This document shows, in pieces, positions 35,059 to 59,643 of a stretch of 64,000 bases of DNA. Made by a program: the position numbers and the translations under genes. The notes beneath the pieces were generated by a model. It searched no databases, had not been told where the DNA came from, and saw only the letters and a list, made by a program, of their open reading frames with translations. Source of the stretch: Paracholeplasma vituli (GTDB lineage: Bacteria > Bacillota_I > Bacilli_A > Acholeplasmatales > UBA5453); NCBI RefSeq assembly GCF_025446935.1, contig NZ_JAOEGN010000001.1, forward strand, positions 62,001 to 126,000. The letters are read 5' to 3'. The stretch's first letter is position 1; each line of letters opens with the position of its first letter.

Positions 35059-35107
35059 GTGTGCTAAGTCATGTAAAGTGACAAATTTTACAAGTGAGGT
35101 ATACACC

Positions 35108-42118: not shown

Positions 42119-42769
42119 TCATTTATTGTCAAGGAATGCTTGTCCAACCAATAGTTCGTTAATTCCTAGTAGTGTTTTATCCGCCATTTTTGAGAGACTT
42201 GCTGGCCCTATGCCAATAGCAAACATCTTAGCATTTTTTGCTGCTAAGATACCAGCTTCTGCATCTTCAACGACAGCACATTGTTCAGGTTTTAACCCCA
42301 GTGCTTGACCCGCTTTAATAAACACCTCAGGATGAGGCTTACTGTATGTGATGTCATTACCATCAATAATCGCGTCAAAACTATCCAGTAATCCAATCTT
42401 TTTTAGTATCTTCCTTGCATTTTTACTAGATGAACCAATAGCAATCTTAATATTTTGCTGTTTTAGCAATCGAATAGTCTCTTTTACACCGGGTAATATA
42501 TCTGCTTCTGATAGTTGATCTAATAATCTTACATAGAATTCATTTTTTTGAGTAGCCAATGATTGCTTTTCATCATTAGAGTACACCTTAGATGCTCTAG
42601 ATAAAATAATCTCTAAAGACTCCATTCTCGAAACACCCCTCAACTGATGATTGATAGTTCGATCAAAAGGTATTCCTTCCTGATTTGCAATAAATTGCCA
42701 TGCTTCAAAATGAAGGTCATCGGTTGAAACGATGACCCCATCTAAATCAAATATTACACCTTTTATCAT
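42119..42769 (-). CDS. pgmB: Beta-phosphoglucomutase
   Basis: It converts beta-glucose 1-phosphate to glucose 6-phosphate. The 216-residue HAD-fold protein has the nucleophile and acid Asp8/Asp10 in FDLDGVI, the cap region with LRGVSRMESLE, IGSSSKN, SKPHPEVF and VEDAEAGI. These are the signatures of beta-PGM rather than a general phosphatase. It is the last gene of the operon that includes a GH65 phosphorylase, whose product is beta-glucose 1-phosphate, so the two act in sequence. Confidence 0.92.
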   Translation of the reverse strand: MIKGVIFDLDGVIVSTDDLHFEAWQFIANQEGIPFDRTINHQLRGVSRMESLEIILSRASKVYSNDEKQSLATQKNEFYVRLLDQLSEADILPGVKETIRLLKQQNIKIAIGSSSKNARKILKKIGLLDSFDAIIDGNDITYSKPHPEVFIKAGQALGLKPEQCAVVEDAEAGILAAKNAKMFAIGIGPASLSKMADKTLLGINELLVGQAFLDNK

Positions 42770-42770: not shown

Positions 42771-43745
42771 TTATTTCTTGGTCGCCTTTAATGAGAAATT
42801 TTGGAGGGTTATTGAAACGTCATATGTCCCTGGTATTTCATACCCAATATTCATGTTCGTTAAGTATAAATCTTCTACCTCGGTATTGAGTAATGCGCCT
42901 TGTTGTTTAGCAAGCATTAATGCGCGAGCAAAGTATGGAATCAAATCGATGTTAATGTCATTATGAACACCTACTTGTAACCCATTTGGCATAAAATCAA
43001 TTTGTGGCATTTGATAGATAAACTTCCCCGTATTACCTGAAGTACCTGCATCAATCATGCCATTTTCTTGCATCAATGGATATCGTGCATCAAAAAATGG
43101 GATACCAAACCACATATATTCACCTGCATCAGCAGCTGCATTACTTCTTACTACAATGTACATCAAGAACTGTGCTGTGTGTAATGAGGCGTTATACTCT
43201 GCATTTGACATATGATTCACTAAACTATTCAATTGAATGGAAAGACTCAATACGATGCTTTCTACATCACTGACTGATACATTTTGTGATAAGCCTTGTT
43301 GGATTAATAAATGGGGCCAAGCTTCTTTAGATTCTCTTGGACGTAGGTATTCTTTTGAGGTATTCAAGACAAATGTGATTTCGCCAGTATCTGGATTAAT
43401 AATGAGTTTTTTAGATGGATCTTCAATGGTATAGAAACCATCCACATAGGCAACTTTTTTACCATTCAATGCATAATCATCCGCTAATCCAAAACGATTG
43501 CCAGCTTGCCCTAAAAGCCAAGCAATCTGACCCGTTGGTGTCCCATAGGTCAAATTATAATCTAAAGGATAACGATTGTCTGGTTGTGGTTCATTATCTG
43601 CTGGAGATATCACAAATCCATTACGGAAATGATTATCTTGAATGAGTTCAATGACCTTACTTTCTGGATTCGGTGGTTTTTGATTACAGGCTGTAAGCGT
43701 CATAAATAATCCTAACATACAAAACAGTATCAGGCTTTTTTTCAT
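42771..43745 (-). CDS. Lipoprotein, third member of an unrecognised family (diverged)
   Basis: 324 residues with lipobox GLFMTLTAC. It aligns by eye with the proteins at 52851 and 53751: KEYLRPRESKEAWPHLLIQQ, LHTAQFLMYIVV, YMWFGIPFFDARYPL, IDAGTSGNTGKFIYQM, INIDLIPYF and NIGYEIPGTYDVS. The predicted fold is mainly beta. It lies between the MalG-type permease gene and pgmB. It is the most diverged of the three; the HxDQGG motif of the others is here IDAGTSG. The function is unknown; a glycan-binding or glycan-cleaving role is inference from the operon. Confidence 0.65.
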   Translation of the reverse strand: MKKSLILFCMLGLFMTLTACNQKPPNPESKVIELIQDNHFRNGFVISPADNEPQPDNRYPLDYNLTYGTPTGQIAWLLGQAGNRFGLADDYALNGKKVAYVDGFYTIEDPSKKLIINPDTGEITFVLNTSKEYLRPRESKEAWPHLLIQQGLSQNVSVSDVESIVLSLSIQLNSLVNHMSNAEYNASLHTAQFLMYIVVRSNAAADAGEYMWFGIPFFDARYPLMQENGMIDAGTSGNTGKFIYQMPQIDFMPNGLQVGVHNDINIDLIPYFARALMLAKQQGALLNTEVEDLYLTNMNIGYEIPGTYDVSITLQNFSLKATKK

Positions 43746-43756
43746 AGGTTTCTCCT

Positions 43757-44602
43757 TTACATTTTAATGCTACCACTGGTCAATCCAGCGATAAATTGTT
43801 TAGATGCTAATAAAAACACGATGAGTAGTGGTAAACTGCTGATGACATACGCTGCAAAAGGTGCCCCATAACCACCTGTCATACCATAATAAGCTGAGGT
43901 GAAATTGACTAGTGCGATCGGTAACGTGTGTAATCGTTCTTCAAGTAAGACCAGTGATGGCCATAAGTAATCGTTCCAACCACCAATAAATGAGGTAATT
44001 ACCAAAGTCCAAATAATGGGTTTTGAGATGGGTAACATCACATTATAGTAGACTTGAAAATCAGTTGCACCATCGATAGTTGCAGCATCCAATAATTCTG
44101 TAGAAACACCAGAAAATGAGGTTCTGAGTAAGAATGTTGCAAACGGAATCGAACCTGCAATAGCGGGCAAAATAACACCCCAATGTGTATTCACTAACCC
44201 GAGTTTATTAACAAGTTCATATTGACTGGTGATGGTCACTATTCCTGGCATCATCAACAAAGCAATGATCATATAAAAGATGGTGTTTTTGTACGGAAAA
44301 TTGAATCTCACAAAAGCAAACGCTGTAAATGAACCGATGGAAACAATCCCAAAAGTTTGAATGATCGTAACAAACAACGAATTAAACAAATACGGTTTGA
44401 TGACAATCCAAGCATATTCATAATTTTCAAGACTCCATACTTTGGGTAATCCGAATGGGTTAGACTGATCATCTGAAATGGTTTTAAAACTTTTAATGAC
44501 AAGCATGAACAATGGGTAGAATGATAAAACCAATAAGGTCACTACTAATAAAGTTATGATGACTTCGACATATTGTTTCTTTAAATATCTAACGATCAGC
44601 AT
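43757..44602 (-). CDS. ABC sugar importer permease, MalG type
   Basis: About 281 residues with six membrane segments, including VIITLLVVTLLVLSFYPLFML. The EAA loop reads LDAATIDGATDFQVYYNVMLP and the end is QFIAGLTSGSIKM. ATG 44602 follows AAGGA by ten bases; ATG 44611 is in frame but too close to the ribosome-binding site. It pairs with the permease encoded just upstream. Confidence 0.9.
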   Translation of the reverse strand: MLIVRYLKKQYVEVIITLLVVTLLVLSFYPLFMLVIKSFKTISDDQSNPFGLPKVWSLENYEYAWIVIKPYLFNSLFVTIIQTFGIVSIGSFTAFAFVRFNFPYKNTIFYMIIALLMMPGIVTITSQYELVNKLGLVNTHWGVILPAIAGSIPFATFLLRTSFSGVSTELLDAATIDGATDFQVYYNVMLPISKPIIWTLVITSFIGGWNDYLWPSLVLLEERLHTLPIALVNFTSAYYGMTGGYGAPFAAYVISSLPLLIVFLLASKQFIAGLTSGSIKM

Positions 44603-44603
44603 A

Positions 44604-45497
44604 TTAGTCATTTCCTTTCAGTTTTTTCATATTGAAAAGGGTAACCCCTAACGTCATTAGAAAAATAACAATCCCGATTGCAGAGGCATAGCCATACCGG
44701 TCATACGTGAACGCTTCTTCGAATAACATGAAGGCTGGGACATTCGTCGCGTTCGTTGTTCCTGGCCCACTACCTGTGACTAAAACCTGTAGATTAATGT
44801 TCTGTAATCCCCCAATAATTCCCATCACAACAAAGTATTTGATTTGACCTTTCAATAAAGGCATGTCGATTCGAATCACTCGTTGAAGTAGGTTTGCACC
44901 ATCAAGCTTAGAGGCTTCGATGACCCCACTGGATATGTTTTGTAGTCCCGCTAAATAGATTAAAAATGAAGTCCCGGCAACCCATGGAAATGCAGTTAAC
45001 ATAATGGCTACTGGCGCTAATTTAGGATCAAAATACCAGTTTTGATTGCCACCACCGAAGAAGTTGATGAGTCGATTCGCAATACCCGAATCACCACCAG
45101 CAAACACGATATATTGCCAAATAAGAATGACGACGACAGCAGGGACTAATACCGGTATGATAAATAAGAAACGGTATAATGCACTCGCAAATCGACTTTT
45201 TAGATTATATAATAACTCGGCTAGAAAGATTGTAGCAAAATTACCTACAAACATCCCTACCACAATAAAAATTACCACATTAAACAAGCTTCGATAAAAA
45301 ACTGGGGATGTGAATAGTTCAATGAAATTATCAAGGAAAATGAATTTTCCAATCCCTGCACCATTCGCATCCGTAAACGAAAACATCAATGTTCGAATCG
45401 GTGGATAGTAAGAAAAAATCAGCAATAACAAAATCGCTGGCGAAAGCCATATAAAGGCTTTGTATTGAAATTTGGGTTTTCGCTGATTTTTCTTCAT
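44604..45497 (-). CDS. ABC sugar importer permease, MalF type
   Basis: About 297 residues; CUT1 type. First membrane segment AFIWLSPAILLLLIFSYYPP. The EAA loop is IEASKLDGANLLQRVIRIDMP. The start is ATG 45497 after GGTGAGG, which itself overlaps the stop of the binding-protein gene. Third permease pair of the window; likely cargo is a glucose-rhamnose oligosaccharide. Confidence 0.9.
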   Translation of the reverse strand: MKKNQRKPKFQYKAFIWLSPAILLLLIFSYYPPIRTLMFSFTDANGAGIGKFIFLDNFIELFTSPVFYRSLFNVVIFIVVGMFVGNFATIFLAELLYNLKSRFASALYRFLFIIPVLVPAVVVILIWQYIVFAGGDSGIANRLINFFGGGNQNWYFDPKLAPVAIMLTAFPWVAGTSFLIYLAGLQNISSGVIEASKLDGANLLQRVIRIDMPLLKGQIKYFVVMGIIGGLQNINLQVLVTGSGPGTTNATNVPAFMLFEEAFTYDRYGYASAIGIVIFLMTLGVTLFNMKKLKGND

Positions 45498-45502
45498 AAT
45501 CC

Positions 45503-46990
45503 TCACCATTTAGATTCGTCGTACTCGTTTTCTATTTTGAGTGCTTGAATCGTATTTCGAATTGTTTGTGCCAAAGAACGAGCTACTTCTTCGGTGGTTT
45601 TAACCTTATTATCAATATCTTGTAAGCTCTTGATGAATGCTGTGTTATAAGCATAACCTAACATAGCCCATGAATTTACAGAACCCCAATATACACGGCT
45701 ACCTGTGTTTACGGTTGCTTTATCTTGGGTATAAATCTCTAATAAATCTTGAAGGTATGGTGCGATGGCAGTCTCTGAATCTGGATTCAGTGGAATACCA
45801 CCTTTTAAATCACCGATTAAACGATTATTATTCTGTGGTGCTGTTAAAAACATTAAGAAATCAACTGCGCCTTCAACTGTACCTTTTTCTACTGCCGAAT
45901 TAGTGATAAACCACGGTGTTGCAAGTCCAGCAACACCTCGAATCGACGGCGAATACGCATGTTGAGTGGTTGCTGTAGTTAGGTCAGGATACGGCATGAC
46001 ACCCCATTCAAAATTGATGTTCTTATTGATGGATAACTTACGGATTTCCCTACCTGTTACTTCAACCATGGCCAAATTGCCGTTGACAAAATTCGTATGA
46101 GCATCATAGCTTTGCCAATTTTGTGGGTAAAACTCTGTCTTCATCTTCGTGACTTTGATGTATTCATAATAACGATTATCCACTAAAGATGCGCCTGAAC
46201 CTATCGCATTTACAGTTGGGTTCCAGATGCCTTTTTCAAAGGCTCTGACAAATTCTTCCGTATCGACTTTACCATTGACTGTTAGCACATCTGCAAGCGG
46301 TAAAATATCAGAGAACATCGTAGATTCTAAAACAATATCATACCATGTGTAAGTCGTAGTATAGGCTTCTTTATTAGTCTTGGACTTAATATCGCTTAAA
46401 GCCTGTAAAAACTCTGCATAGGTTTCAGGTACTTTGGTGATGCCCGCTTCTGCGAGGATGGCTTTATTATACATAATGCCCACCGGTACTTTTTCTAACG
46501 TGATGGTGTAATAATTGCCATCACTTGCCATATTTTGGGCAAGTTCCTCAGGAATATATAAATCCTTCCAGGCTTTATTCCCTGAAACATATTTGTTTGG
46601 TTTATTTAAATACTCATTTAAAACGACATAGTAATCTTTACCTAAATCCATGTTGACAACCGTTCCGTTTTGATAGGTAATATCTGGGGCGGTCTTATTG
46701 TTTAATTGTGGCACTAAGATGGCTCTATCGCCATTAGAAGATGTTTTATTGATTTCAATTTTGTATTTCGGATTTAACTTTTCCCATTCTCTCGCCAATA
46801 CTTCTAATGTATTATAAGGAAATGGATTGGCTTCACTTGGGGTCATGAGTGGGGTTGTATTGAAGTTACCAATATCGCCACCCCCATCAATCACGATGGT
46901 TTTTACTTCACCTACACCGCCATTACCGTTACAAGCTGACACGATTACTAGCGATAGTATTAAAGCAACTAGGGTCAAGACTTTTTTCAT
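45503..46990 (-). CDS. Sugar-binding lipoprotein of the rhamnose-operon importer
   Basis: 495 residues with lipobox LSLVIVSAC. It has the layout of large family 1 binding proteins: KYKIEINKTSSNGDRAILVPQL, ITYQNGTVVNMDLG, IMYNKAILAEAGITKVPETYAEF, LAMVEVTGREIR and AVDFLMFLTAPQNN. Its gene overlaps the end of GH65 by 4 bases, and permease genes follow. It should capture the substrate for GH65. Confidence 0.9.
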   Translation of the reverse strand: MKKVLTLVALILSLVIVSACNGNGGVGEVKTIVIDGGGDIGNFNTTPLMTPSEANPFPYNTLEVLAREWEKLNPKYKIEINKTSSNGDRAILVPQLNNKTAPDITYQNGTVVNMDLGKDYYVVLNEYLNKPNKYVSGNKAWKDLYIPEELAQNMASDGNYYTITLEKVPVGIMYNKAILAEAGITKVPETYAEFLQALSDIKSKTNKEAYTTTYTWYDIVLESTMFSDILPLADVLTVNGKVDTEEFVRAFEKGIWNPTVNAIGSGASLVDNRYYEYIKVTKMKTEFYPQNWQSYDAHTNFVNGNLAMVEVTGREIRKLSINKNINFEWGVMPYPDLTTATTQHAYSPSIRGVAGLATPWFITNSAVEKGTVEGAVDFLMFLTAPQNNNRLIGDLKGGIPLNPDSETAIAPYLQDLLEIYTQDKATVNTGSRVYWGSVNSWAMLGYAYNTAFIKSLQDIDNKVKTTEEVARSLAQTIRNTIQALKIENEYDESKW

Positions 46991-49266
46991 ATTTGATCCT
47001 TTCTCATACCGGTTAGTGGTATGATGGTTTTCTTTGTGTGTTCGAATGTTTGTTGTTTATAAACCAATCGGAGTGGGGATGTACAATAAATCGTTACAGA
47101 CTCTTTAGACAACTCCGCTTTGACTAGTTTACCTTGATACATGAATTCCATTTTAACGTTCCCCCAACGCTCAAAATACGTTGGGTTTAATTCTAAGTAA
47201 TTGAGGGCTGGTTTAAAGCCAAATAAACCTCTAAATACTGAGTACCATCCACCAGCCATACACGCAGCGTGTAAGCCTAAATGGGCTTCTTTGTGGTGGT
47301 CGATGATGTCAATAGCGACACTCTTATACCAGTAATCATAAAACTTATCACACTCTTGATGGTCTATCGCTGCGATGGCGTGAACTGGGTAGGTGAGTGA
47401 AGAGGAGGCTTCACACATCTTTTCATAGTATTGCCAGTTTCGTTCATAAGAGACAGGTCCTAATGGTAAATCGATGTAGGTAAATAGCATGATGACATCC
47501 GGTTGTTTGATGACTTGAGATTCATGGTAAAGGCCTGATTGTTTCATTTGGAAACTCTTGGCTGACCCATTGCCAGTCACTTCGAGGGTTTCTTTTAAAT
47601 TGAAGTACCCATCAAACTGTGGAATATAGCCATCCTTGGTAATGCTTTTTTTAATCTTTAAAGAGACTTGTTTTATTTTGTCGAGTAACGGTTTTTGAAT
47701 ACCATACTTATCCTTTAAAACCTTGTTTCTTAACCACTCAACAGTTTCTCCTAATACATAGGAAACCATAAAGTTGGTATAGGCATTGTTGTTGATATAA
47801 GGGTGGTGTTCATCGGTACCTGTGACGTTATTTAAATCGTAGATATCCTCATTTTCATTATACTGAACTCTTTGGATAAAGTACTTGGAAATTTCTAAAA
47901 GCATCTCTACCCCATAATTCACCATAAACTCATGGTCTTTAGTTACGCGGTAATAGGCGAGGATTGCGTAGGCGATATCCGAGTTGATATGGATTTGCAT
48001 AAACGGGTGTCTTGCATAAGCCCATACTTTCTCATCCCCTAATACCGATGAACAAAACGCATAACGTGCGCCATCAATGCCTTCTTTTTTCGCATTTTTA
48101 ACGGCTTCTTCTAACCGGTTATACCGATACATCAAGATCGATTTCGCCGCTTCTGGTTGTGTCATTAAATACACAGGAAATTGGAATATTTCAGCGTCCC
48201 ACCATACAAATTGATTGTATTTTTCACCGGTTAAGTTTTTCGCACTGACGCTATGAACTTGGTCATAACGGTCTAGTGAAATGAGAGTTTGATAGTTAGC
48301 ATATTGAAGTAAGGCTTCATCTTCTTTATGGTCAAGTTCAATATTCATTCGTGTGAATGCTTGAACATAGGCGATTAGGTGCTTTTGATAGTGCGAACTA
48401 TGGGGTTGTTCTTTCACTTCTCTCATTGCCTGATGATTAACACTTGCAAGTTCGCTTTTCAACAGTACATCTTGGGTCATATGAACCACAATCGCTTTTT
48501 TGATGTGGATTACTTTTTCTTGTTTCGGATGTATACGTTCAAAATGACAACCGGTATCATACATCCATTCGGATGATTCTTTTTCTACTTCATTGTGAAT
48601 GGAAATCGCTGTTTCAAAATGATATTTCTCTCCAATACCAAACAAAAACTGACCTTGATCATAATCGAATGATTTTAGTTTGGATTTCTTTTGTCCGTTT
48701 GTTTTAATGAATGTATCTAACCCACTATCAATCACAACATCGAGGTTATGATTGAGTTTTTCTAGGGTTGCGTGAATGAAATAGTGGTGGTTGTCTTTAA
48801 ATGAGGCGAACCGTCTAAAGGAGAGTTTGGTTAAATGACCTTCTAAGTCATTCCAAACCACTTCTCTGATTAAACACCCATCGTTGGTATCAATGTATCT
48901 AACCCACGATTCAATCTTACCTTCCCAAGGGTAAAAGGTATGCCCCCCAATGGTAAATCTTAAGAGTAAAATATCCGCAAAATTAATACACGAATCTTGA
49001 GTCTCGAACTGTTTCGCTTCGATCTCATTGATATAGTATTTTCGCATATACATATTATCGATATAAATTTGAGGAATCTCGATGATTTCATCGATTAAAC
49101 CTCGGATGTACGCGCCTTGAACATTCAAAGAACCGAATTCTTCAAATGATCCTCTGATGCCAAAGTACCCATTCCCTGTGGTAAATAGCGCAGCATTTCT
49201 CGCTTCTTCTTTCATTTCATAAGAAGCTTCAATTAAACTGTTGTGATTTGCGCTATAAGTTAACAT
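46987..49266 (-). CDS. GH65 disaccharide phosphorylase, probably glucosyl-rhamnose type
   Basis: 759 residues, the usual GH65 length, without signal peptide. The general acid Glu486 lies in TGTDEHHPYINNNAYTNFM, in the family's conserved (G)xDE-H-NNxYTN block; the substrate region KYNQFVWWDAEIFQFP and DGARYAFCSS are also present. Inverting GH65 phosphorylases cleave alpha-glucosides with phosphate to give beta-glucose 1-phosphate. Known acceptors include glucose, trehalose, nigerose, kojibiose and, in one clostridial enzyme, L-rhamnose (3-O-alpha-glucosyl-L-rhamnose phosphorylase). Co-transcription with rhaA, rhaB, rhaD and pgmB favours the last. The sequence alone does not fix the acceptor. 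Confidence 0.88.
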   Translation of the reverse strand: MLTYSANHNSLIEASYEMKEEARNAALFTTGNGYFGIRGSFEEFGSLNVQGAYIRGLIDEIIEIPQIYIDNMYMRKYYINEIEAKQFETQDSCINFADILLLRFTIGGHTFYPWEGKIESWVRYIDTNDGCLIREVVWNDLEGHLTKLSFRRFASFKDNHHYFIHATLEKLNHNLDVVIDSGLDTFIKTNGQKKSKLKSFDYDQGQFLFGIGEKYHFETAISIHNEVEKESSEWMYDTGCHFERIHPKQEKVIHIKKAIVVHMTQDVLLKSELASVNHQAMREVKEQPHSSHYQKHLIAYVQAFTRMNIELDHKEDEALLQYANYQTLISLDRYDQVHSVSAKNLTGEKYNQFVWWDAEIFQFPVYLMTQPEAAKSILMYRYNRLEEAVKNAKKEGIDGARYAFCSSVLGDEKVWAYARHPFMQIHINSDIAYAILAYYRVTKDHEFMVNYGVEMLLEISKYFIQRVQYNENEDIYDLNNVTGTDEHHPYINNNAYTNFMVSYVLGETVEWLRNKVLKDKYGIQKPLLDKIKQVSLKIKKSITKDGYIPQFDGYFNLKETLEVTGNGSAKSFQMKQSGLYHESQVIKQPDVIMLFTYIDLPLGPVSYERNWQYYEKMCEASSSLTYPVHAIAAIDHQECDKFYDYWYKSVAIDIIDHHKEAHLGLHAACMAGGWYSVFRGLFGFKPALNYLELNPTYFERWGNVKMEFMYQGKLVKAELSKESVTIYCTSPLRLVYKQQTFEHTKKTIIPLTGMRKDQI

Positions 49267-49269
49267 CTC

Positions 49270-50409
49270 TTATCCCTCCAACACTCGAATGAGTCCTGCT
49301 GCATAGATTCTAACTAAAAAGTCACTCGGGTGGTTGATATTATTCGCGAGAATATCTACACCCTTTTTGGTTTTATAAAGCTCTTCAGTAATACTACCCA
49401 TATCGAGTAACGCCACCCCGTATTGGTCTTTTAACGCTTCTAACTCAACTAAGTAATTCTTTTGACCTTGGTTTTGAATGGATAACGGATTCGCATAAAT
49501 AGTTTGAATCAAAATAATATCCGCAACCGGGTGTCTGGATTGAATTGAACGAATCATAAATTCAATGTGTTCTCTATAGGTTAATGGAGAAACCCCTAAA
49601 GACCCATCATTCATCCCAAACCCAATGATGACTAAATCAGGGTTATAGTCATTGACGAGGGTATCGACATTGTCTTTTCCCCACGAAGCCAACATACCAC
49701 CCTTAGCGGTGTTGATTAAGCTGACTTCTGAATCATATTTATCTTGGATGTAATTGGTAAATAGCGTTCCAAAATCGTCCAAATAGGGTTTGATGCCTAA
49801 GATGCCTGAAGCGTTCGCTCCGGTGGAAATCGAGTCTCCATATAATACGACATTTACTGCTTCACCAGCATTTATTTTTTTAGTAAATCGCGCCAATGCA
49901 TCCGCTTGATGGGCAGGTGTAATGCCTGCCCATGTGGATGCGTGTTTATACGTTACGGCGATTTGATGCATGACAATCCCAATGCCTTCAGTAAAGATAA
50001 TTTGTGTGCCTGGGGCTTTCGCTTGATAGGTACTAAAAGCGTACTCTTCAGGTAAGTTTTTTCCAGCCAACTGTTCAGATGTTAAATAGGGCATCGTGGA
50101 AACATCGGTTCTAATGAGGGTGTTATCTCTAATTTCATATTCTTTTGGATCATATTCTTTATCAAGCGTATAATCTCTTACAGATATGATTTCAGTGGGT
50201 GTAAAGAGTAACTTACCGGATATTTCCGAACCGTTATCTTCTAAGACAACCGTTTCATTATAGATGATTTTATCTTTCCATACGTTTACTAACATTTGTT
50301 TTTCTCCATACTGATAGCCTAAGTCTTTTTGACAAGCACTCAGAATAAAACTGGTAAAGAGTAAGCTGATAAACAGGATTAAGTGCTTATAGATTACTCT
50401 TTTGTTCAT
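49270..50409 (-). CDS. SGNH/GDSL hydrolase lipoprotein, probable carbohydrate esterase
   Basis: 379 residues, lipobox LLFTSFILSAC. An N-terminal beta-rich domain (~30-170) precedes an SGNH domain with all four blocks: VVLYGDSISTGANASG (Ser), GGMLASWG, IGFGMNDGSLG (Asn) and the final NINHPSDFLVRIYA with Asp/His. The arrangement is that of CE2/CE3-like and related acetyl esterases. It should remove acyl groups from polysaccharide outside the cell. It is encoded directly after the surface protein (no gap) and 3 bases before GH65. Confidence 0.85.
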   Translation of the reverse strand: MNKRVIYKHLILFISLLFTSFILSACQKDLGYQYGEKQMLVNVWKDKIIYNETVVLEDNGSEISGKLLFTPTEIISVRDYTLDKEYDPKEYEIRDNTLIRTDVSTMPYLTSEQLAGKNLPEEYAFSTYQAKAPGTQIIFTEGIGIVMHQIAVTYKHASTWAGITPAHQADALARFTKKINAGEAVNVVLYGDSISTGANASGILGIKPYLDDFGTLFTNYIQDKYDSEVSLINTAKGGMLASWGKDNVDTLVNDYNPDLVIIGFGMNDGSLGVSPLTYREHIEFMIRSIQSRHPVADIILIQTIYANPLSIQNQGQKNYLVELEALKDQYGVALLDMGSITEELYKTKKGVDILANNINHPSDFLVRIYAAGLIRVLEG

Positions 50410-52803
50410 TTAGATACCTTTTTTCTTAAATACGAAGAAGGCAGCTGCGGCTAAGAGGATGACCCCGCCACCAATACTTAAGGATAAGACTAAAGCACGG
50501 TTAGAAGATTGTGGCGCTGCAGGGGCTGCTGTGATGGATAAAGCAACGCTTGCTGACCCACCCGCTGTTTCAATCTTAATTTCGTGTTCTCCAGCTTCAA
50601 GTGTTTCTAAGAAGCTTGATTTAAGTTTAAGAACGTTGTTTGCATAAGTGTAGTTTGCACCATCAACAACCACACCATTCACTTTCACAGTGTAGGTTAA
50701 ATCTCTGTTATAGAATTCGATATTCTTATCGGTTAAGGATTCAAGTTCATAAGATAGCGTTGTTGTTAATACATGCGGTGCTGGTGCATAAGCAACGGCT
50801 AAGGATTCAGAAAGTGGGTTTTTACCATTGATTAAGGATACGCTTAAGGTATTCTTAGAAGCATTGGTTCCACCGGTGGCCGCTAAGTATAAATAACCTG
50901 TACCATTGGCTAAAGATGTTTTTAAGGATCTTGTTGTGATAGTATCACCAGTCATCACTTGGCCGCCTATGGAAAGTTTTAGATATTCATCTGTGACCCC
51001 AGAGACTGTCTTCATTTCGGTTGAGAAGTCAATGACTATTTCATTTGATAAATCTATCGTTAGGGTCGCTGTACGTTTCGCATCAAAAAAACGGTTAGAA
51101 TATAGGCTTAACATATAAATTTCAACTCTCGCTTGATTTGCGCCATCAGGGATAATCAAGAAGAATAAGCCTTTATTGTTTTGTACAGAAGCATCATCGG
51201 CAGTTGAGAAGATTTCTGGATTTTCCATAATACCAAAGCTAATCCATCCACCAGCTTCTACTGTAATGGCAGAAATGTCTAAAGTCATCTTGAAGTTTCT
51301 GACATCAAGTGCTTCAAGTTCATAGAATAAACCATTGTTGCCTTCACCTAAACCAGAGCCTAGGAAAGTCGCTTCAATCTTATTGTTGTTTTCGATGACA
51401 TAGGTGTTATCGCCAACAATCCAACCTTCTAAGGTTTGGGTTGCTTCAAGCAATACAGCTTCAGCAGCGTCAAACGCATCATTGAATTCAATTTGGTCTA
51501 CTTCTGCTAATAAGCTGATTAAGTTATTTGAAACGCCTGCTTTCGCATCGAGGGCTGCGTTGACTTTTGAAATATCTGATAAGTCTAATACAGAGGCTTC
51601 GAAAGCATCGATTTGAGTTGAAACTAAATCGTGAACCTTAGAAATGATTAATGCATCGGCGTCTTCAATTCTACCGGATAATGCTGTGAGTCTTGTAAGT
51701 TGTTCTGGGGTAAATTCACTTGAATCTACGGCTAATTCTTTTGTTTGGGCTGTTTCTAATTGGGTGATAGCTTGATTAGCTGTAGCAAAGTTGGTAATTA
51801 AATTGACTTTACCTTCTAGGTTGACTACGGAAGCTTCAAGTTCATCTAAGACGATGTCGCCACCAAGTTCAGTGATTGCTGCTTCAAGGGTGTCTTGAGC
51901 CGCGTCATAGCGTGCTTGGTAATAATTCTTGTCATATGATTTCAATGAATCAAAGTTAATGTTCGCGTTGATGGCTTGTGCAGCTTGTACATTCGCGATC
52001 ACGGATAAGTCTTCTAATAATGCGGCTTCTAAAGCGACTAAGTTTGTTTTGAAGGTGTCATAAGCACCATCTTCTGCATAATACGCTCTACGGCTAGCAT
52101 CCACAACATAATTCGCGATTAAGGTTTGAATCGAACCATCGATGTTTAATCCACCAACTAGGAAATAAGAGTTCGTCTTATCTGCGAAGTTTTGATAGAA
52201 AGTGGCTGAAGCGACGGTGAATACTTGACCATTGATGGTCACATTCACATTGGTGCCTACTTCTTTGATCGATACGGTGATCACATCTTCTAAAGCGACT
52301 AATTGATAGCCTTTCCAGTTCGCATCTTCCCAATCCCCTTGTTCAGCCAAAATGAATTCTGGTAAGGAAATGTGGTGTGTGCCTGAACCTACTTGGATAG
52401 CGACTAAGTATTTATTAGCGACTGTGGTGTGCTTAACAAATTCAATCGATAAGACTGCACCATTACCACTGATGTATGAACCTTGTGGTCCAAAGAACGT
52501 GATTGCTGCTGTACCTGGGTCCATATAAGTTAAATCCAGTTGCATTTCAAAATCGGTTGCGTTAAATGGGGTTCTAAATCCAGCTCTTAAGCCGAACCCT
52601 GTGGTTAACGCCATTGCGACACCTTGGTCGCCAATACGGGATGCACCAAAACTACCTGGTTGCCAATGTGAATAGAAATCCGTTGTGGTTGATTCTACAC
52701 CAACGACTGGTGGATTTTCTGGTAATACGGCTGCTTTAGCTTGCTTTGCCATCATCATAAATGCTAAAACAACGATTAAACTGAATGCTACGATTTTTTT
52801 CAT
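50410..52803 (-). CDS. Membrane-anchored surface protein with two beta-sandwich modules
   Basis: 797 residues. Sec signal AFSLIVVLAFMMMAKQAKA; C-terminal helix LSIGGGVILLAAAAFFVF plus KKKGI. Residues ~35-235 and ~455-660 are concanavalin-like beta-sandwiches (FEMQLDLTYMDPGTAAITFF; FKMTLDISAITVEAGGWISFG). Between them is a long helical, FIVAR-like stretch (~240-450). An Ig-like X2-type domain (TLEAGEHEIKIETAGGSASV) precedes the anchor. No catalytic motif is seen, so it is likely a glycan-binding surface protein. The start is ATG 52803, five bases after GGAGG; ATG 52815 is part of that site. A small hairpin lies in the leader. Confidence 0.8.
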   Translation of the reverse strand: MKKIVAFSLIVVLAFMMMAKQAKAAVLPENPPVVGVESTTTDFYSHWQPGSFGASRIGDQGVAMALTTGFGLRAGFRTPFNATDFEMQLDLTYMDPGTAAITFFGPQGSYISGNGAVLSIEFVKHTTVANKYLVAIQVGSGTHHISLPEFILAEQGDWEDANWKGYQLVALEDVITVSIKEVGTNVNVTINGQVFTVASATFYQNFADKTNSYFLVGGLNIDGSIQTLIANYVVDASRRAYYAEDGAYDTFKTNLVALEAALLEDLSVIANVQAAQAINANINFDSLKSYDKNYYQARYDAAQDTLEAAITELGGDIVLDELEASVVNLEGKVNLITNFATANQAITQLETAQTKELAVDSSEFTPEQLTRLTALSGRIEDADALIISKVHDLVSTQIDAFEASVLDLSDISKVNAALDAKAGVSNNLISLLAEVDQIEFNDAFDAAEAVLLEATQTLEGWIVGDNTYVIENNNKIEATFLGSGLGEGNNGLFYELEALDVRNFKMTLDISAITVEAGGWISFGIMENPEIFSTADDASVQNNKGLFFLIIPDGANQARVEIYMLSLYSNRFFDAKRTATLTIDLSNEIVIDFSTEMKTVSGVTDEYLKLSIGGQVMTGDTITTRSLKTSLANGTGYLYLAATGGTNASKNTLSVSLINGKNPLSESLAVAYAPAPHVLTTTLSYELESLTDKNIEFYNRDLTYTVKVNGVVVDGANYTYANNVLKLKSSFLETLEAGEHEIKIETAGGSASVALSITAAPAAPQSSNRALVLSLSIGGGVILLAAAAFFVFKKKGI

Positions 52804-52824
52804 GGTTCCCTCCATATATTTTTT

Positions 52825-52841
52825 ACAACTGTCTCAGTTGT
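52825..52841 (-). other. Hairpin just before the surface-protein ribosome-binding site
   Basis: ACAACTG-TCT-CAGTTGT, a perfect 7-bp stem with a 3-base loop, in the 47 bases between the upstream stop and this start codon. On the transcribed strand it is followed by A-runs, so it is not a terminator; mRNA 5' protection is plausible. Confidence 0.5.
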
Positions 52842-52850
52842 TGAATCGAC

Positions 52851-53744
52851 TTATTTTAATACTGCTAATGCGCTAACGCCTTGGATGTATGATTTAACAT
52901 CAAATCGTCCAGGCAGTTCCCATCCAAAATTCATATAACCTATTTGATAGTTTGCTTGATCATGTTTTTTTAAATACCCGTGGTCTAAGGCATACTGTTT
53001 GGCTTTTAAGACAAACGGTAAGATATCCACTACAATGTGATAGGTTTTTCCAAATTGAATGGGTTCTTTTAAGTAGTTTCGATTGGACATCGAGTAGATG
53101 AGTCTACCGGTTGTACCAATCCCTCCCTGGTCGACATGCATCGACTCTTCAATGAATGGATAACGGTTATCATAAAGCGGTATACCAAACCAAAAGAATT
53201 CTTTGAAGTTGCCATAGCCCTTAGAACCTTCAATCCCTGTATCGTGAATCACGAAATACCATAAAAGCTGTGCAGCATGTAGGTTAGGGTTAAATAAACC
53301 GAGGTTTTCATCTTTAACAGATTCAATGTTAAAAGTGAGTTTTAAGGTGAGTGATTTTAATTCATCTACTGAGACGCTTTGTTCAAAGTCTTGTTCAATG
53401 AGCAAATGACTCCATGGTTCACTACCGTTTTTTCTAACCCCATTAGGGTATTCTTTAGATCCGCTCAAATCCATCTTGAGATACCCTGTTTTGGGATTCA
53501 CTTCAATGTGTCTTGAAGGGGTGTCATAGATATAGTTATCTAATACTTTTTTGCTAGAAGATTCACATAAATCAAATGGCGTCCACCACTGGGCCATCTG
53601 CCAGATTGGCCTATTGGTGGGATTGGCTTCGCCTTGATAATCTAAGTGTTTGTAAATCTTTCTGTGATTGATTGTTGGATTAATCCCAAGCACATGAAAT
53701 CCTGTTTTAAACTGTGGGTCAGTTAATAGTTCGATTGTTTTCAT
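52851..53744 (-). CDS. Cytoplasmic member of an unrecognised family in a rhamnose operon
   Basis: 297 residues and no signal peptide; it begins MKTIELLTDPQFKTGFHVLG. It is clearly paralogous to the lipoprotein at 53751: LDYQGEANPTNRPIWQMAQWW, SEPWSHLLIEQDFEQSVSV, LHAAQLLWYFVI, FFWFGIPLYDNRYPF, HVDQGGIGTTGRLIYSM, YHIVVDILPF and YMNFGWELPGRFDV. The fold is predicted to be beta-sandwich with many conserved Trp, His, Glu and Asp. A cytoplasmic copy of an otherwise exported protein argues for an enzyme rather than a surface binding module. It could act on imported rhamnosides. The family is unknown to me. Confidence 0.7.
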   Translation of the reverse strand: MKTIELLTDPQFKTGFHVLGINPTINHRKIYKHLDYQGEANPTNRPIWQMAQWWTPFDLCESSSKKVLDNYIYDTPSRHIEVNPKTGYLKMDLSGSKEYPNGVRKNGSEPWSHLLIEQDFEQSVSVDELKSLTLKLTFNIESVKDENLGLFNPNLHAAQLLWYFVIHDTGIEGSKGYGNFKEFFWFGIPLYDNRYPFIEESMHVDQGGIGTTGRLIYSMSNRNYLKEPIQFGKTYHIVVDILPFVLKAKQYALDHGYLKKHDQANYQIGYMNFGWELPGRFDVKSYIQGVSALAVLK

Positions 53745-53750
53745 AGATAC

Positions 53751-54731
53751 CTACTTTTTAATCGCTTTAATGGAGATACCTCTAAAGGTTGAGGATACAT
53801 CAAATGTCCCTGGGAGTTCCCAACCTAAATTCATATACCCAATTTGCATGTTTTGATATTGTGCATTGACTAACGCATTATTATTAATCGCGTATAGGAA
53901 AGCTTCTTGTAAGTAAGGTAAGACATCGATTTCGATATGATAGGTTTTACCCATTTGGATTTTCTCATCAAAATAGTTTCTTGATGACATTGAGTAGATG
54001 AGTTTATTGGTGGTTCCTGGACCACCTTGGTCAAGGTGAGCGGACTGTGCAATAAAGTCTGTTCTATTATCAAAGATTGGAATGCCAAACCATAAGAAAT
54101 CGCCACGGGTACCCACTTCATTTGGATTACTATCTTCAGGTACCACGTTTTGTAAGGTCAAATACCATAACAGCTGTGCGGCATGTTTTCCTGGGTCATA
54201 GGCTGAACCGGTTAAGTTTTCAACCGAATTCACGGTGACCTCAAGTCTTAAGATGAGTGCGGATAATTCAGACATCCCCACCGATTCATTGAAGTTTTGT
54301 TCAATGAGGGCGTGTGTCCATGGTTGACCGCTTTGTCTTGGTTCTGAGTATTCTTTAGAGGCTTGTAGATCAATTCGTAAGTAACCATTGTCACTAGGGT
54401 TCATATGTAATGTTCTAGATTCTGTTTGATAGGTATGAACACCATTCACTTTTGAATAGGTTGAATCAGTGACATCATGAGGTGTCCACCACTGAGCCAT
54501 GTACCAAACATTTCTGCTTGAAGGTAAGGCTTCTCCGTTATAATCCAAATGTCTTTGAATGGTTCTACCATCTTCCACAGGGCTGATTCCTAGAAGCTGA
54601 AAGCCGGTTGAAAAAGTTGGGTCTTCTAGAAGTTCTATCGCACCTGTGTCATCGATGATGGGTTCATCTTTTTCTTTACATCCGGATAACAACACTAAGG
54701 ATAAAATCAATATGCCTAAGACCTTTTTCAT
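53751..54731 (-). CDS. Lipoprotein member of the same unrecognised family
   Basis: 326 residues with lipobox SLVLLSGC. After the linker it runs parallel to the cytoplasmic protein at 52851 over its whole length: HLDYNGEALPSSRNVWYMAQWW, QPWTHALIEQNFNESV, KHAAQLLWYLTL, FLWFGIPIFDNRTDF, HLDQGGPGTTNKLIYSM, YHIEIDVLPYL and GYMNLGWELPGTFDVS. It is encoded 4 bases overlapping rhaD and 6 bases before its paralogue. Predicted place of action: outer face of the membrane, on polymer or released oligosaccharide. Function unknown. Confidence 0.7.
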   Translation of the reverse strand: MKKVLGILILSLVLLSGCKEKDEPIIDDTGAIELLEDPTFSTGFQLLGISPVEDGRTIQRHLDYNGEALPSSRNVWYMAQWWTPHDVTDSTYSKVNGVHTYQTESRTLHMNPSDNGYLRIDLQASKEYSEPRQSGQPWTHALIEQNFNESVGMSELSALILRLEVTVNSVENLTGSAYDPGKHAAQLLWYLTLQNVVPEDSNPNEVGTRGDFLWFGIPIFDNRTDFIAQSAHLDQGGPGTTNKLIYSMSSRNYFDEKIQMGKTYHIEIDVLPYLQEAFLYAINNNALVNAQYQNMQIGYMNLGWELPGTFDVSSTFRGISIKAIKK

Positions 54732-55540
54732 TTGATAAATGCCTCATTTGGTTTGACGTTAAAGGCTTTCGCAAGTCTCAATAAATCTTCATCCGAAATG
54801 AGTTTATGGTTACTAAATGGTTTAATGGTTAAATAGGTCATAGCGGCTTTTTCCACTGTTTCAACTAAACCAAAGGTTGAGTCGAGTGTGTCGCCACAGG
54901 CGACTACACCATGAAGTGGCCATAAGACGATTTTGAATGTTTTAAATTTGTCTGCTGTGTTTTTTCCAATGATGCCATTGCCGGGGATTTCCCAAGGAAT
55001 AATACCAATACCCTCAGGGAATATGATGATGTTTTCGGTGTTTAAACCCCATAACGCTTTTGAGAATGTTTTTTCATCTAGCTCTGTAATCGCACTCATC
55101 ATATTGGTGTAGGTTGTGTGGGTATGGATGATGACGCGGTGTGTTGGGTCGATTTCAAGTCTAGAGATGTGTGAAGCTAGGTGTGTAGATAATTCAGAGG
55201 TCGGTCTTTCGGTTGGTTTTAATCCCCAAAGGATTTCCACATGATCGCCATTTTCAGTGACTTTTACGATACAACTGTTCGCTTCAGGGTGCTCTTTGAC
55301 ATTTTTAAAATACTTCCCTGACCCGGTGACTAATAGGTATTTCCCCGCCAACGCTTTCGCATTGATTTGAAGTGGGTACAATCTTCCTGGTTTCGATAAG
55401 TCTAAGTAAAGGGATAGCTCAGCTTGATCTAGGATGAACGAAACGTTCCCCGCATTTCTTTCATCCCAACCAAGTAAATACATACGGTCAATGACATTCG
55501 AGAATTCTTGGATAAACTTGGATTCTAATATGTTTTTCAT
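54728..55540 (-). CDS. rhaD: Rhamnulose-1-phosphate aldolase
   Basis: It splits L-rhamnulose 1-phosphate into dihydroxyacetone phosphate and L-lactaldehyde. The 270-residue class II zinc aldolase has the family start FIQEFSNVIDRMYLLGWDERNAGNVS, the phosphate-binding VTGSGKYFKN, zinc-ligand His in VIIHTHTTYTNMM and the third His in LWPLHGVVACG. It overlaps rhaA by 4 bases. A lactaldehyde reductase is not in the window. Confidence 0.95.
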   Translation of the reverse strand: MKNILESKFIQEFSNVIDRMYLLGWDERNAGNVSFILDQAELSLYLDLSKPGRLYPLQINAKALAGKYLLVTGSGKYFKNVKEHPEANSCIVKVTENGDHVEILWGLKPTERPTSELSTHLASHISRLEIDPTHRVIIHTHTTYTNMMSAITELDEKTFSKALWGLNTENIIIFPEGIGIIPWEIPGNGIIGKNTADKFKTFKIVLWPLHGVVACGDTLDSTFGLVETVEKAAMTYLTIKPFSNHKLISDEDLLRLAKAFNVKPNEAFIK

Positions 55541-56781
55541 AGTCTTTTGCCTTTCATGGTCGCTTCATAAGCTTCGATTTGCTTCAAGAAGTCGATACCC
55601 ACTGGTTTTTGTTCGGTCTCACAAATATAGTCATAGACCAGTCCAAATGGTAGTGCTTTTAATTCTTCGGTGTAGATGAGTCTTTGTGTATAGTTTTGTT
55701 CTAATTCAATCTTTTTAAGGAGTTCTTTGGGTTCAAGTAAGGCTTTTAATAAGGCCTTTTGAGTATTTCTAATTCCAATTACCCAAGCAGCGATCCGGTT
55801 GATTGAGGCGTCGAAGTAATCTAAGCCTATCGATGTTTTCTTTAATAAATCATCCCTGACTAACGCTTCAGCAACCCCGATTAAGTCATCGTTTAAGGTA
55901 ACGACATGGTCTGAATCCCATCTCACAGGTCTAGATACATGGAGTAAGGTATGATCGACGAATAATGACATGGATGATAGTTTGTCTGATACTTGTTCTG
56001 TTGGATGGAAATGACCTGTATCCAAACAAATGCCTAGATGATGTTTGGTTGCGTATCCTAAATAGAATTCATGAGAACCGGTGGTGTATGATTCTGCCCC
56101 AATTCCAAAGAGTTTCGATTCAAGTGTGTCCTTTACGTGAGGTAATTTGGTTTGGTAGATGTCATCGAGTGATTCTTTTAATCTGACTCTAGGGGATAAT
56201 CTTGAATACGGAGAATCTTTATAACCATCTGGGATCCAGAGGTTACAAACCGTATCCGTATTCAAGGCTTCACCGAAATAGGAGGCAATCTTTCTCGATT
56301 GTTTTACATGCTTGATCCAAAAGTTTCTAACGGTTTCGTCACTTGAAGAAAGTGTAAACCCAGATTTAGCCATTGGATGTGAGAATAGGGTTGGATTAAA
56401 GTCAAGTTTGACATTATTTTTTTTAGCCCATTTAACCCACGACTCAAAGTGTCTTGGTTCAATTTCATCGAGTCCGATGGATTCTTGGGTATCGAGATAT
56501 ATAGCATGTAAATTCACTCTGTGTTGATAAGGCACTAAGCTGAAGACCATTTCTAAGTCTTTTCGTAGTTCTTCGAGGGTATTCGCTTTATAAGGGTAGT
56601 TTCCCGTTACAGAAATCCCACCAGAGAGGGCTTCTTTACTATAAAAGCCTTTGACATCATCGCCTTGCCAGCACTGGATGGAGATGGGTGTGTGTTTGAG
56701 TGTATGGATGGCTTGATCGATATCCACGCCGTAATTGGCGTAGATTGATTTAGCTAAGTTATATTTTTCTTTTTGGGTCAT
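55537..56781 (-). CDS. rhaA: L-rhamnose isomerase
   Basis: It converts L-rhamnose to L-rhamnulose. The 414-residue protein begins LAKSIYANYGVDIDQAIHTL and has SIQCWQGDDVKGF, ISVTGNYPYKA, VNLHAIYLDT, FGIGAESYTTGSHEFYLGYA and the metal-binding CLDTGHFHPTEQVS. Length and motifs are those of RhaA throughout. It overlaps rhaB and rhaD by 4 bases each, so the three enzymes are translationally coupled. Confidence 0.96.
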   Translation of the reverse strand: MTQKEKYNLAKSIYANYGVDIDQAIHTLKHTPISIQCWQGDDVKGFYSKEALSGGISVTGNYPYKANTLEELRKDLEMVFSLVPYQHRVNLHAIYLDTQESIGLDEIEPRHFESWVKWAKKNNVKLDFNPTLFSHPMAKSGFTLSSSDETVRNFWIKHVKQSRKIASYFGEALNTDTVCNLWIPDGYKDSPYSRLSPRVRLKESLDDIYQTKLPHVKDTLESKLFGIGAESYTTGSHEFYLGYATKHHLGICLDTGHFHPTEQVSDKLSSMSLFVDHTLLHVSRPVRWDSDHVVTLNDDLIGVAEALVRDDLLKKTSIGLDYFDASINRIAAWVIGIRNTQKALLKALLEPKELLKKIELEQNYTQRLIYTEELKALPFGLVYDYICETEQKPVGIDFLKQIEAYEATMKGKRL

Positions 56782-58229
56782 TTGTTTCTCTCCTTTAGGA
56801 TGGTTTGATACTTTTGGTAGATGCTTGATAAATCGGTCTTGGGTTTAAAAATCCTATTTTTTTCTTTCGACAAGTCTTGTTTAGTAAACCCTGTATATTT
56901 GGATTCGTGTTGAACTAACGCATTTCCAATGGAGGTTGCTTCTTTATCCCCTTTAATTACGTTTAATCTTGTGATATCAGCGGTCATCTGATTGATGAGG
57001 TCATTCTGCGATCCACCGCCAATGATGTTGATTTGTTTGGTTTTGATGTTCGTTAACTTTTCGAGAGTGTCTAGGTGGTGTTTATATTTACAAACCAAAC
57101 TGTAATTGAATAAGGCTAAATATTGAGATAACGTTTTAGGTGTTTCTTGATTGGTTCTAATGCAGTAGTATTTGATTTTATCGAGAATATCGATACCTAG
57201 TTCAAACTCAGGGGCATCTAAATCGATGATGGAATCAAAGTATAGGCTTTGTTTGATGTCTTCATCAAGTACTCTATAATCGATATTGTCTAGTTTAAAG
57301 GCTTCAATGATTTTGTTTTTGATCCAAAAGCCAGCGATATTTTTTAAAAATCGAATTTGATGAAGATACCCTACTTCATTGGTATAAGAGGCATTGTAGG
57401 TATCTTGGTTAATCAGTGGTTTATCTAAGACTTTACCGATTAAACTCCATGTACCTGAAGAAATATAGACATCCTCTTTATTTACTTGAGTACTATGTAC
57501 CGCAGACGCGGTATCGTGTGTACATACCGCGACGACCGGTACTTTTTTAAGTTGATATTTTAAGACTAAATCATCTTTGAGATACCCATAGGTTTCACCT
57601 GGGTAAATGATCTTGGGTATAAAATCTGGGTTAAATCCCATCTGGTATAAAGTATCAATGATATTTTTTTGATTCGGGTTATAGAAACTGGTTGTGGAGA
57701 GATTGGTTAATTCTACTCGCTTGATACCGGTTAGGTAATAAGCGATTAAATCTGGGATCATCAACCAGGTATCGGCTTGTTTTAATAAGGCTTGTTCGTA
57801 TGTTAAGTCATAGGCAATCTGGTAAATCGTATTAAATCGTAAGTGCTGGATGCCAGTGAGCTCATATAAGGCTTCTTTTGAAATCTCTCGATTGATTAAT
57901 GATTCTCCCTCTCGTGTTCTTTCATCACGGTAACATACGGGGTTTCTTAGTAATAAACCCTCTTTACTGAGATAACCGTAATCTACACCCCACGTATCAA
58001 TCCCAATCGATTCGATATCGGGTTCGATTTCAAAGGCTTTTTGAATACCGTACATGATTTCATTAAAGATCTTTTTAAAATCCCATACTAAAAGAACCTC
58101 TTGTTGGATCGGCTGATTTGTAAAACGATGTACTTCTCTTTGTTTAATTGAATTTCCTACCGTGATGATGATGACGCGTCCAGAAGACGCGCCTAAATCC
58201 ACGGTTAGGTAATGATGATTATCGTTCAT
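56778..58229 (-). CDS. rhaB: L-rhamnulokinase
   Basis: FGGY-family kinase of 483 residues that phosphorylates L-rhamnulose at O1. Visible motifs are LTVDLGASSGRVIII (phosphate loop), IESIGIDTWGVDYGYL, NPVCYRDERT, PVVAVCTHDTASAVHS, YISSGTWSLIG and INIIGGGSQNDLINQMTADI. It overlaps the oxidoreductase gene upstream by 11 bases and rhaA downstream by 4. Confidence 0.95.
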   Translation of the reverse strand: MNDNHHYLTVDLGASSGRVIIITVGNSIKQREVHRFTNQPIQQEVLLVWDFKKIFNEIMYGIQKAFEIEPDIESIGIDTWGVDYGYLSKEGLLLRNPVCYRDERTREGESLINREISKEALYELTGIQHLRFNTIYQIAYDLTYEQALLKQADTWLMIPDLIAYYLTGIKRVELTNLSTTSFYNPNQKNIIDTLYQMGFNPDFIPKIIYPGETYGYLKDDLVLKYQLKKVPVVAVCTHDTASAVHSTQVNKEDVYISSGTWSLIGKVLDKPLINQDTYNASYTNEVGYLHQIRFLKNIAGFWIKNKIIEAFKLDNIDYRVLDEDIKQSLYFDSIIDLDAPEFELGIDILDKIKYYCIRTNQETPKTLSQYLALFNYSLVCKYKHHLDTLEKLTNIKTKQINIIGGGSQNDLINQMTADITRLNVIKGDKEATSIGNALVQHESKYTGFTKQDLSKEKNRIFKPKTDLSSIYQKYQTILKERNK

Positions 58230-59460: not shown

Positions 59461-59507
59461 CTTTGTTTCGTCCTTACTAAATATAAATATAATCGCGTTG
59501 TTATCGC

Positions 59508-59521
59508 TGGAAACGGTTTCA
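59508..59521 (-). promoter_or_regulatory. cre site in the rhamnose operon leader
   Basis: On the minus strand TGAAACCGTTTCCA is nearly palindromic and fits the relaxed CcpA consensus TGNAANCGNWNNCW throughout. It lies just downstream of the predicted transcription start, in a roadblock position. Confidence 0.7.
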
Positions 59522-59535
59522 TTTGGTTCATCACA

Positions 59536-59565
59536 ACTATAACAGTTATGGCGGATTAAAGTCAA
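59536..59565 (-). promoter_or_regulatory. Promoter of the rhamnose operon
   Basis: On the minus strand TTGACT-N18-TATAGT. Transcription should begin near 59530 and run through 14 genes to the terminator at 42053. Confidence 0.75.
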
Positions 59566-59580
59566 CTAATGAACGTTATC

Positions 59581-59628
59581 TTGACAATTAGTCACGATAA
59601 TTGTAAAATTCAGTCATATTCAGTCACA
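59581..59628 (+). promoter_or_regulatory. Promoter and direct-repeat operator of the deoR-type gene
   Basis: TTGACA (59581-59586) -N17- TAAAAT (59604-59609) is a near-ideal promoter. Two tandem copies, TTCAGTCATA and TTCAGTCACA (59609-59628, 10-base period), begin at the -10 and cover the start point. Tandem repeats one helical turn apart are usual DeoR-family operators, so autoregulation is likely. Confidence 0.8.
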
Positions 59629-59643
59629 TTTTTGGAGGAATCT

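Follow-up and report, generated by a model that had tools for sequence, protein, structure and literature searches.

A candidate carbohydrate-active enzyme family with a predicted clan GH-C-like fold in a rhamnose operon of Paracholeplasma vituli

The closest solved folds to the proteins described here are found in glycoside hydrolase clan GH-C, where the beta-jelly-roll enzymes of GH12 (endoglucanases and xyloglucanases, e.g. Thermotoga maritima Cel12A) stand beside the GH11 xylanases and which, to our knowledge, has long held these two families only. The GH78 alpha-L-rhamnosidases act in the same sugar pathway and are encoded beside relatives of these proteins in Bacteroidota, but have an (alpha/alpha)6 barrel fold and share no sequence similarity with them. 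Family GH65 includes 3-O-alpha-glucosyl-L-rhamnose phosphorylase (PMC8537180, PMC8950772), an activity of the Cphy_1019 type that would yield beta-Glc-1-P and free rhamnose. We have analysed a 64,000-nucleotide stretch of the genome of the wall-less bacterium Paracholeplasma vituli (the window), in which an earlier note had singled out three proteins of a rhamnose operon as candidates for a new glycosidase or lyase family.

The three proteins, P0001 (42771), P0002 (52851) and P0003 (53751), form together with their relatives what we call family X, of which the window's genome holds exactly these three copies (Table 1). They are paralogues, as had been claimed, since their pairwise identity of 34-51% reflects homology far above chance (P0002 versus P0003, E=2.7e-95, 51% identity; P0002 versus P0001, E=2.1e-43, 34% identity). 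Two of the motifs ascribed to them, KEY...W-x-H-x-LI-x-Q and WFGIP-x-x-D-x-R, are present in all three, and the third, given as IGY-x-x-x-x-E-x-PG, was slightly misspelled and is shared in the form M-N-x-G-[WY]-E-[LI]-P-G. The division into two lipoproteins and one cytoplasmic protein was also correct: P0001 and P0003 carry the lipoprotein signals LTAC and LSGC, respectively, and P0002, which has none, begins at the domain itself (MKTIELLTDP), as does its orthologue in locus L012. P0001 groups in a clade with copies from other Bacilli, several of which likewise adjoin permease genes. The Pfam search proposed earlier, extended to NCBIfam, gave no significant match to family X, only sporadic single hits of single members; PDB sequences gave no relevant match with single-sequence or profile queries, phage and plasmid records gave none, and in the literature on endo-rhamnosidases and new clan GH-C families we found nothing describing the family.

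Table 1. Genes of the rhamnose operon and the adjoining regulator, with positions in the window
Feature	Position	Strand	Remarks
Beta-phosphoglucomutase, last gene of the operon	42119..42769	-	TIGR01990 255.9 bits, above cut-off
Family X copy P0001, lipoprotein, 324 aa	42771..43745	-	Between ABC permease and beta-phosphoglucomutase genes
ABC permease 2	43757..44611	-	Assigned by eye; kept beside family X in other loci
ABC permease 1	44604..45509	-	Assigned by eye; kept beside family X in other loci
ABC sugar-binding lipoprotein	45503..46990	-	PF01547 E=3.7e-12
GH65 enzyme, probable alpha-glucoside phosphorylase	46987..49266	-	PF03632 E=3.4e-78
SGNH/GDSL lipoprotein esterase	49270..50409	-	PF13472 E=6.4e-15
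801-aa surface protein	50410..52815	-	Signal and C-terminal membrane anchor; CBM_X2-like stretch
Family X copy P0002, leaderless (cytoplasmic), 297 aa	52851..53744	-	GH-C-like jelly-roll model
Family X copy P0003, lipoprotein, 326 aa	53751..54731	-	Sister to P0002
RhaD, rhamnulose-1-phosphate aldolase	54728..55540	-	TIGR02624 E=2.6e-97; NF002963 above cut-off
RhaA, L-rhamnose isomerase	55537..56781	-	PF06134 E=2e-186
RhaB, rhamnulokinase-like FGGY kinase	56778..58229	-	ORF judged by eye
Gfo/Idh/MocA oxidoreductase, at the head of the operon	58219..59565	-	PF01408 E=9.5e-14
DeoR-type regulator, divergent from the operon	59569..60405	+	PF00455 E=2e-43; PF08220

An AlphaFold (AF2) model of P0002, computed from an alignment of 63 family X sequences, was confident (pLDDT 95.1, pTM 0.92), and all 50 matches listed by Foldseek against the PDB belonged to clan GH-C, those to GH12 being best (3amh, E=4.9e-9) and those to GH11 forming a second group. 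TM-scores against GH12 were modest (0.3-0.57) with large rmsd and the match is therefore remote; the predicted fold is a GH-C-like beta-jelly-roll. A viral fold library gave weak matches only, chiefly to tail-fibre and uncharacterised phage proteins. When the residues were mapped, D192, D205, E276, G15 and G274 proved invariant in all 63 sequences, down to 22% identity; position 98 is acidic in 62 of them, and R104, H113, H156, Q159, R194, W111, W185 and N272 are conserved at 94-98%. E276 sits in a G-[WFY]-E motif that is invariant as N-x-G-[WFY]-E276.

This residue, on the strand after the single C-terminal helix, may correspond to the acid/base Glu of GH12, which has Q-x-G-x-E-P there. However, identity to GH12 is only 8-13%, and family X differs in an extra N-terminal region, in its rhamnose context and in having cytoplasmic members. 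The Pfam GH12 model PF01670 matched none of 63 family X members at E<=0.1 and was matched in none of 20 genomes carrying the family. HHalign pairs E276 with GH12 E200 at a non-significant E=0.098 (four GH12 sequences), and 5 of 100 shuffles outscored the real alignment. GH12 membership is therefore not claimed here. At the place of the GH12 nucleophile strand, E-x-M-x-W, family X has no conserved Glu, so the GH12 mechanism is not simply transferable; the candidate strand reads F-[FLI]-W-F-G-[IVL]-P, with Asp or Glu at position 182 in 50 of 63 sequences, followed by W185, G187 and P189. The family likewise lacks the conserved E-Y-Y nucleophile strand of GH11 and, in a profile-profile comparison with one GH11 xylanase against shuffled controls, any sequence signal to it.

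Two other readings of this fold have to be weighed. The near-invariant H113, H156, R104, R194, Q159 and Y99 are similar in type to the residues of jelly-roll lyases, e.g. PL7, and could serve a polysaccharide lyase that cuts at a uronic acid beside rhamnose; this would agree with uronate-rhamnose polymers, ulvan or gellan for example, and with the fusion of a sulfatase to family X in locus L037. We regard a lyase as unlikely because the fold matches listed are all clan GH-C hydrolases with no lyase among them, three carboxylates are fully invariant, and beside family X, both in the window and in the Bacilli operons, neither uronate genes nor an unsaturated-uronyl hydrolase came to notice. Jelly-rolls also occur widely as binding folds, and several copies per locus, together with the position of the Bacteroidota gene after SusC/SusD and another lipoprotein, would suit a non-catalytic family akin to surface glycan-binding proteins. 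This is improbable, as no binding role suggests itself for a leaderless cytoplasmic copy, conservation across phyla exceeds 90% at more than 12 polar or aromatic positions although the sequences share just 22-40% identity, and the nearest folds are catalytic domains. Indeed, assignment to a carbohydrate-binding family, which the earlier note held would speak against its proposal, did not arise: the closest solved folds are clan GH-C glycosidases, not carbohydrate-binding modules.

All three family X genes lie at the positions given earlier and belong to one tightly packed operon of 14 co-directional genes running from 59565 down to 42119 on the minus strand, with intergenic gaps of -11 to +35 nt. 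The RhaB assignment is accompanied by homologues that adjoin RhaA and RhaD in genome G380. The earlier statement that the operon shows no known rhamnosidase extends, for GH78 and GH106, to the entire genome, in which neither the GH78 models PF05592 and PF17389 nor the GH106 model PF17132 found a match, so that a co-regulated enzyme of either family elsewhere did not come to light; the family X proteins themselves match neither set of profiles. What had been overlooked is the possible role of the GH65 enzyme, which among solved proteins comes closest to kojibiose phosphorylase (3wiq, E=1.5e-66) and which can be likened to Cphy_1019 by family only. With the beta-phosphoglucomutase it is a candidate source of free rhamnose within the operon; family X proteins therefore need not be rhamnosidases and need only deliver rhamnose-containing oligosaccharides.

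Depolymerization might instead be the task of the 801-aa surface protein, or of an enzyme encoded elsewhere, with family X performing another step such as debranching. The surface protein is kept in several family X loci (relatives occur in L012, L014, L016 and G380) and has a helical region between two beta-rich regions that lack a Pfam assignment. We give this little credence, given that its predicted model is poor (pLDDT 56), Pfam offers at best a weak match to a CBM_X2 stretch, and no counterpart was recognised in the loci of Bacteroidota and planctomycetes.

On balance, we favour the reading that family X, absent from Pfam, NCBIfam and PDB sequences, is a carbohydrate-active enzyme family with a GH-C-like fold that cuts a rhamnose glycan: the lack of a database entry and the predicted cellulase/xylanase-like shape make it probably a new family of sugar-polymer-cutting enzymes. 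The earlier proposal of a new glycosidase or lyase family finds partial support in the absence of database matches, the GH-C-like model, the invariant acids, the lack of GH78 and GH106 matches in the genome and the rhamnose and glycan context kept in other phyla, its function being a prediction. Our current working hypothesis is that, at the cell surface, a polysaccharide that contains rhamnose and is probably O-acylated would be cut by the lipoproteins P0001 and P0003, stripped of its acyl groups by the SGNH lipoprotein and held by the 801-aa protein. Oligosaccharides brought in by the ABC importer would be trimmed in the cytoplasm by P0002, and GH65 would split off an alpha-glucosyl unit, plausibly from alpha-Glc-(1,3)-L-Rha, passing beta-Glc-1-P to beta-phosphoglucomutase and the sugar to RhaA, RhaB and RhaD. 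We infer that E276 may act as general acid, partnered by D192 or D205. Taken as a whole, the reading that family X kept the clan GH-C jelly roll, lost the clan nucleophile and built another active site, from E276 with D192/D205 and the His/Arg/Gln set, with which it cuts rhamnose polysaccharides outside and inside the cell, is tentative and in our judgement somewhat short of an even chance. If correct, clan GH-C would gain a carbohydrate-enzyme family, the use of rhamnose glycans by genomes with no matched rhamnosidase would be explained, and family X would serve as a marker gene for rhamnose glycan loci in several phyla.

Approximately 65 relatives were found across several phyla, in wall-less bacteria, Bacilli, Clostridia, Bacteroidota, Planctomycetota and others, frequently beside GH65, GH78 rhamnosidases, esterases, SusC/D and sulfatases. 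GH65, SGNH and ABC genes accompany family X in Bacilli and Clostridia, and one Bacilli genome from a different taxonomic family has the operon almost complete, including four family X genes (bPGM-surface protein-X-X-X-SGNH-GH65-ABC-X-RhaB-RhaA-RhaD); the conserved GH65, X, SGNH, ABC and Rha operon offers a defined protein set for joint study. Seven Bacteroidota loci (L026, L030, L041, L042, L043, L046 and L049) contain GH78, Pfam-confirmed for four of the seven, and further genes in family X loci encode GH95, GH38, GH20, GH5, sulfatase, SASA and CE2 proteins.

In the planctomycete locus L044 a Gfo/Idh/MocA gene directly follows the family X gene, and another heads the operon in the window, its product having weak NCBIfam matches that include disaccharide 3-dehydrogenase. 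A 3-keto-glycoside lyase or hydrolase system formed by family X and this oxidoreductase is nevertheless very improbable, for a cytoplasmic dehydrogenase would be out of reach of the lipoprotein copies, homologues occur among the loci examined only in L012 and L013 (close relatives) and L044, and PF06439-type folds are missing from the fold matches listed.

Of 12 Bacillota/Mycoplasmatota genomes with family X, 9 contain RhaA, against 28 of the 295 genomes sampled from the window's phylum (Fisher p=3.5e-7, a value that ignores shared ancestry and compares sets of partly different taxonomic mix). It was missing from 19 of 42 family X-bearing genomes, some incomplete and many from Bacteroidota, which may have another isomerase type instead. 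Leaderless copies recur beyond the L012 orthologue, with relatives in L029, L035 and the three near-alike Armatimonadota loci L032, L038 and L039. In these last three the family X gene adjoins an S41/tricorn-like peptidase gene, outside a sugar context.

The three-member family in the rhamnose operon is real: each copy of this family, here family X, is an open reading frame at the place given in the earlier note, and homology of the three is confirmed by searches in which X2 matched X3 at E=2.7e-95 (51% identity) and X1 at E=2.1e-43 (34% identity). A search of the genome found no fourth copy. The division into two lipoproteins and one leaderless protein also holds, the L012 orthologue of X2 in a related genome likewise beginning directly at the domain, but the third shared motif, written there as IGY-x-x-x-x-E-x-PG, should read M-N-x-G-[WY]-E-[LI]-P-G.

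Features of the window discussed in the text
Feature	Position	Strand	Description
X1	42771-43745	-	family X; lipoprotein signal
X2	52851-53744	-	family X; begins directly at domain, no leader
X3	53751-54731	-	family X; lipoprotein signal
Rhamnose operon	59565 down to 42119		14 co-directional genes
DeoR-type regulator	59569		divergent from operon
600-aa secreted protein	40118-41920		no Pfam match; just downstream of operon
392-aa protein	38872-40050		no Pfam match; just downstream of operon
Mannan/furanoside degradation genes	2952-18274		GH92, two DUF2961 proteins, GH76, GH125, own ABC importer; same strand
Tandem DUF4886 protein	22154-23836		two SGNH-like domains; adjoins mannan genes
Natural fusion	35045-36964		type I phosphomannose isomerase + BadF/NagK-type kinase
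Isomerase and kinase halves	303-914, 1923-2900, 24027-24962		separate and partial copies
GH130	28151-29209
646-aa lipoprotein	29229-31169		no Pfam match; adjoins GH130

The operon, whose genes are spaced -11 to +35 nt apart, runs Gfo/Idh/MocA, RhaB, RhaA, RhaD, X3, X2, an 801-aa surface protein, SGNH esterase, GH65, ABC binding protein, two permeases, X1 and beta-phosphoglucomutase, families being named by Pfam/NCBIfam matches, and RhaB and the permeases by eye and conserved neighbours. Profile searches of the genome found neither GH78 nor GH106, in agreement with the earlier remark that the operon shows no known rhamnosidase. One possible source of free rhamnose had nevertheless gone uncounted, because GH65 includes 3-O-alpha-glucosyl-L-rhamnose phosphorylase (PMC8537180; PMC8950772), and the operon's GH65 may be that source.

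Neither Pfam nor NCBIfam matched family X, and searches of PDB sequences gave nothing relevant. The structure model, built from a 63-member alignment, was confident (pLDDT 95.1, pTM 0.92), and all 50 PDB matches listed for it belonged to GH12 or GH11 (E from 4.9e-9, TM 0.3-0.57). D192, D205 and E276 are invariant in 63/63 members; E276, within N-x-G-[WFY]-E, is on the strand following the single long C-terminal helix, a place that corresponds, by order of elements, to the acid/base Glu of GH12 (Q-x-G-x-E-P). HHalign paired these two residues, with Trichoderma reesei Cel12A (sequence identical to PDB 1h8v) as the GH12 yardstick, although not significantly (E=0.098; 5/100 shuffles scored higher). 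Profile comparison with one xylanase sequence, which we take to represent GH11, gave no signal. As these scores are non-significant and family X lacks a conserved Glu at the GH12 nucleophile site, we do not claim membership of GH12 or GH11, only a predicted fold resembling that of their clan, GH-C.

The chemistry we infer is hydrolysis with E276 as acid. R104, H113, H156, Q159, R194, W111, W185 and N272 are conserved in 94-98% of the 63 members, and the His/Arg/Gln set among them makes a lyase possible; a glycan-binding role is less likely, given this strong conservation and the existence of cytoplasmic copies. The proposal that family X is a new family of glycosidases or lyases, judged against Pfam, NCBIfam and PDB sequences, is plausible and strengthened by the GH-C-like model and invariant acidic residues, catalysis itself being what we still infer. 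Most likely, an acylated polymer containing rhamnose would be cut outside the cell by the lipoprotein copies, its fragments taken up by the ABC importer and trimmed by the leaderless copy, with GH65 and the Rha enzymes completing breakdown.

An alignment-based scan of genome contigs found 43 loci, which hold about 65 distinct members and come from Mycoplasmatota, Bacillota, Bacteroidota, Planctomycetota, Verrucomicrobiota, Armatimonadota and Hydrogenedentota. Family X is rare in the window's phylum (matches in 3/392 sampled genomes, one of them weak). X2 and X3 group together in the tree, whereas X1 falls in a separate clade with other Bacilli copies, several also adjoining ABC permease genes; the two lineages therefore separated before this bacterial family arose. 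In Bacilli and Clostridia, family X accompanies GH65, esterases of the SGNH or CE2 type and a related ABC importer, as in G380, a Bacilli genome of another family (bPGM, surface protein, X, X, X, SGNH, GH65, binding protein, permeases, X, RhaB, RhaA, RhaD). RhaA occurs in 9/12 X-bearing Bacillota/Mycoplasmatota genomes against 28/295 sampled genomes of the window's phylum, sets of differing taxonomic mix and non-independent genomes; locus L033, which encodes SusD and looks mis-assigned, was omitted. Bacteroidota have GH78 genes close by in seven loci, and family X after SusC/SusD in several. In a planctomycete (L044), three consecutive genes encode X, Gfo/Idh/MocA and a fusion of GH65 with a HAD-type (beta-PGM-like) domain (L044:2939-5959), and a verrucomicrobial sulfatase is fused to the domain (L037:4840-7251) among further sulfatase genes. 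In Armatimonadota (L032, L038, L039), leaderless copies lie directly 3' of an S41/tricorn-like peptidase gene, with no sugar genes seen nearby.

Elsewhere in the window, the mannan/furanoside genes suggest that mannans or arabinomannans of microbial cell surfaces serve the wall-less Paracholeplasma vituli as food, and the 646-aa lipoprotein is a possible unassigned glycosidase.
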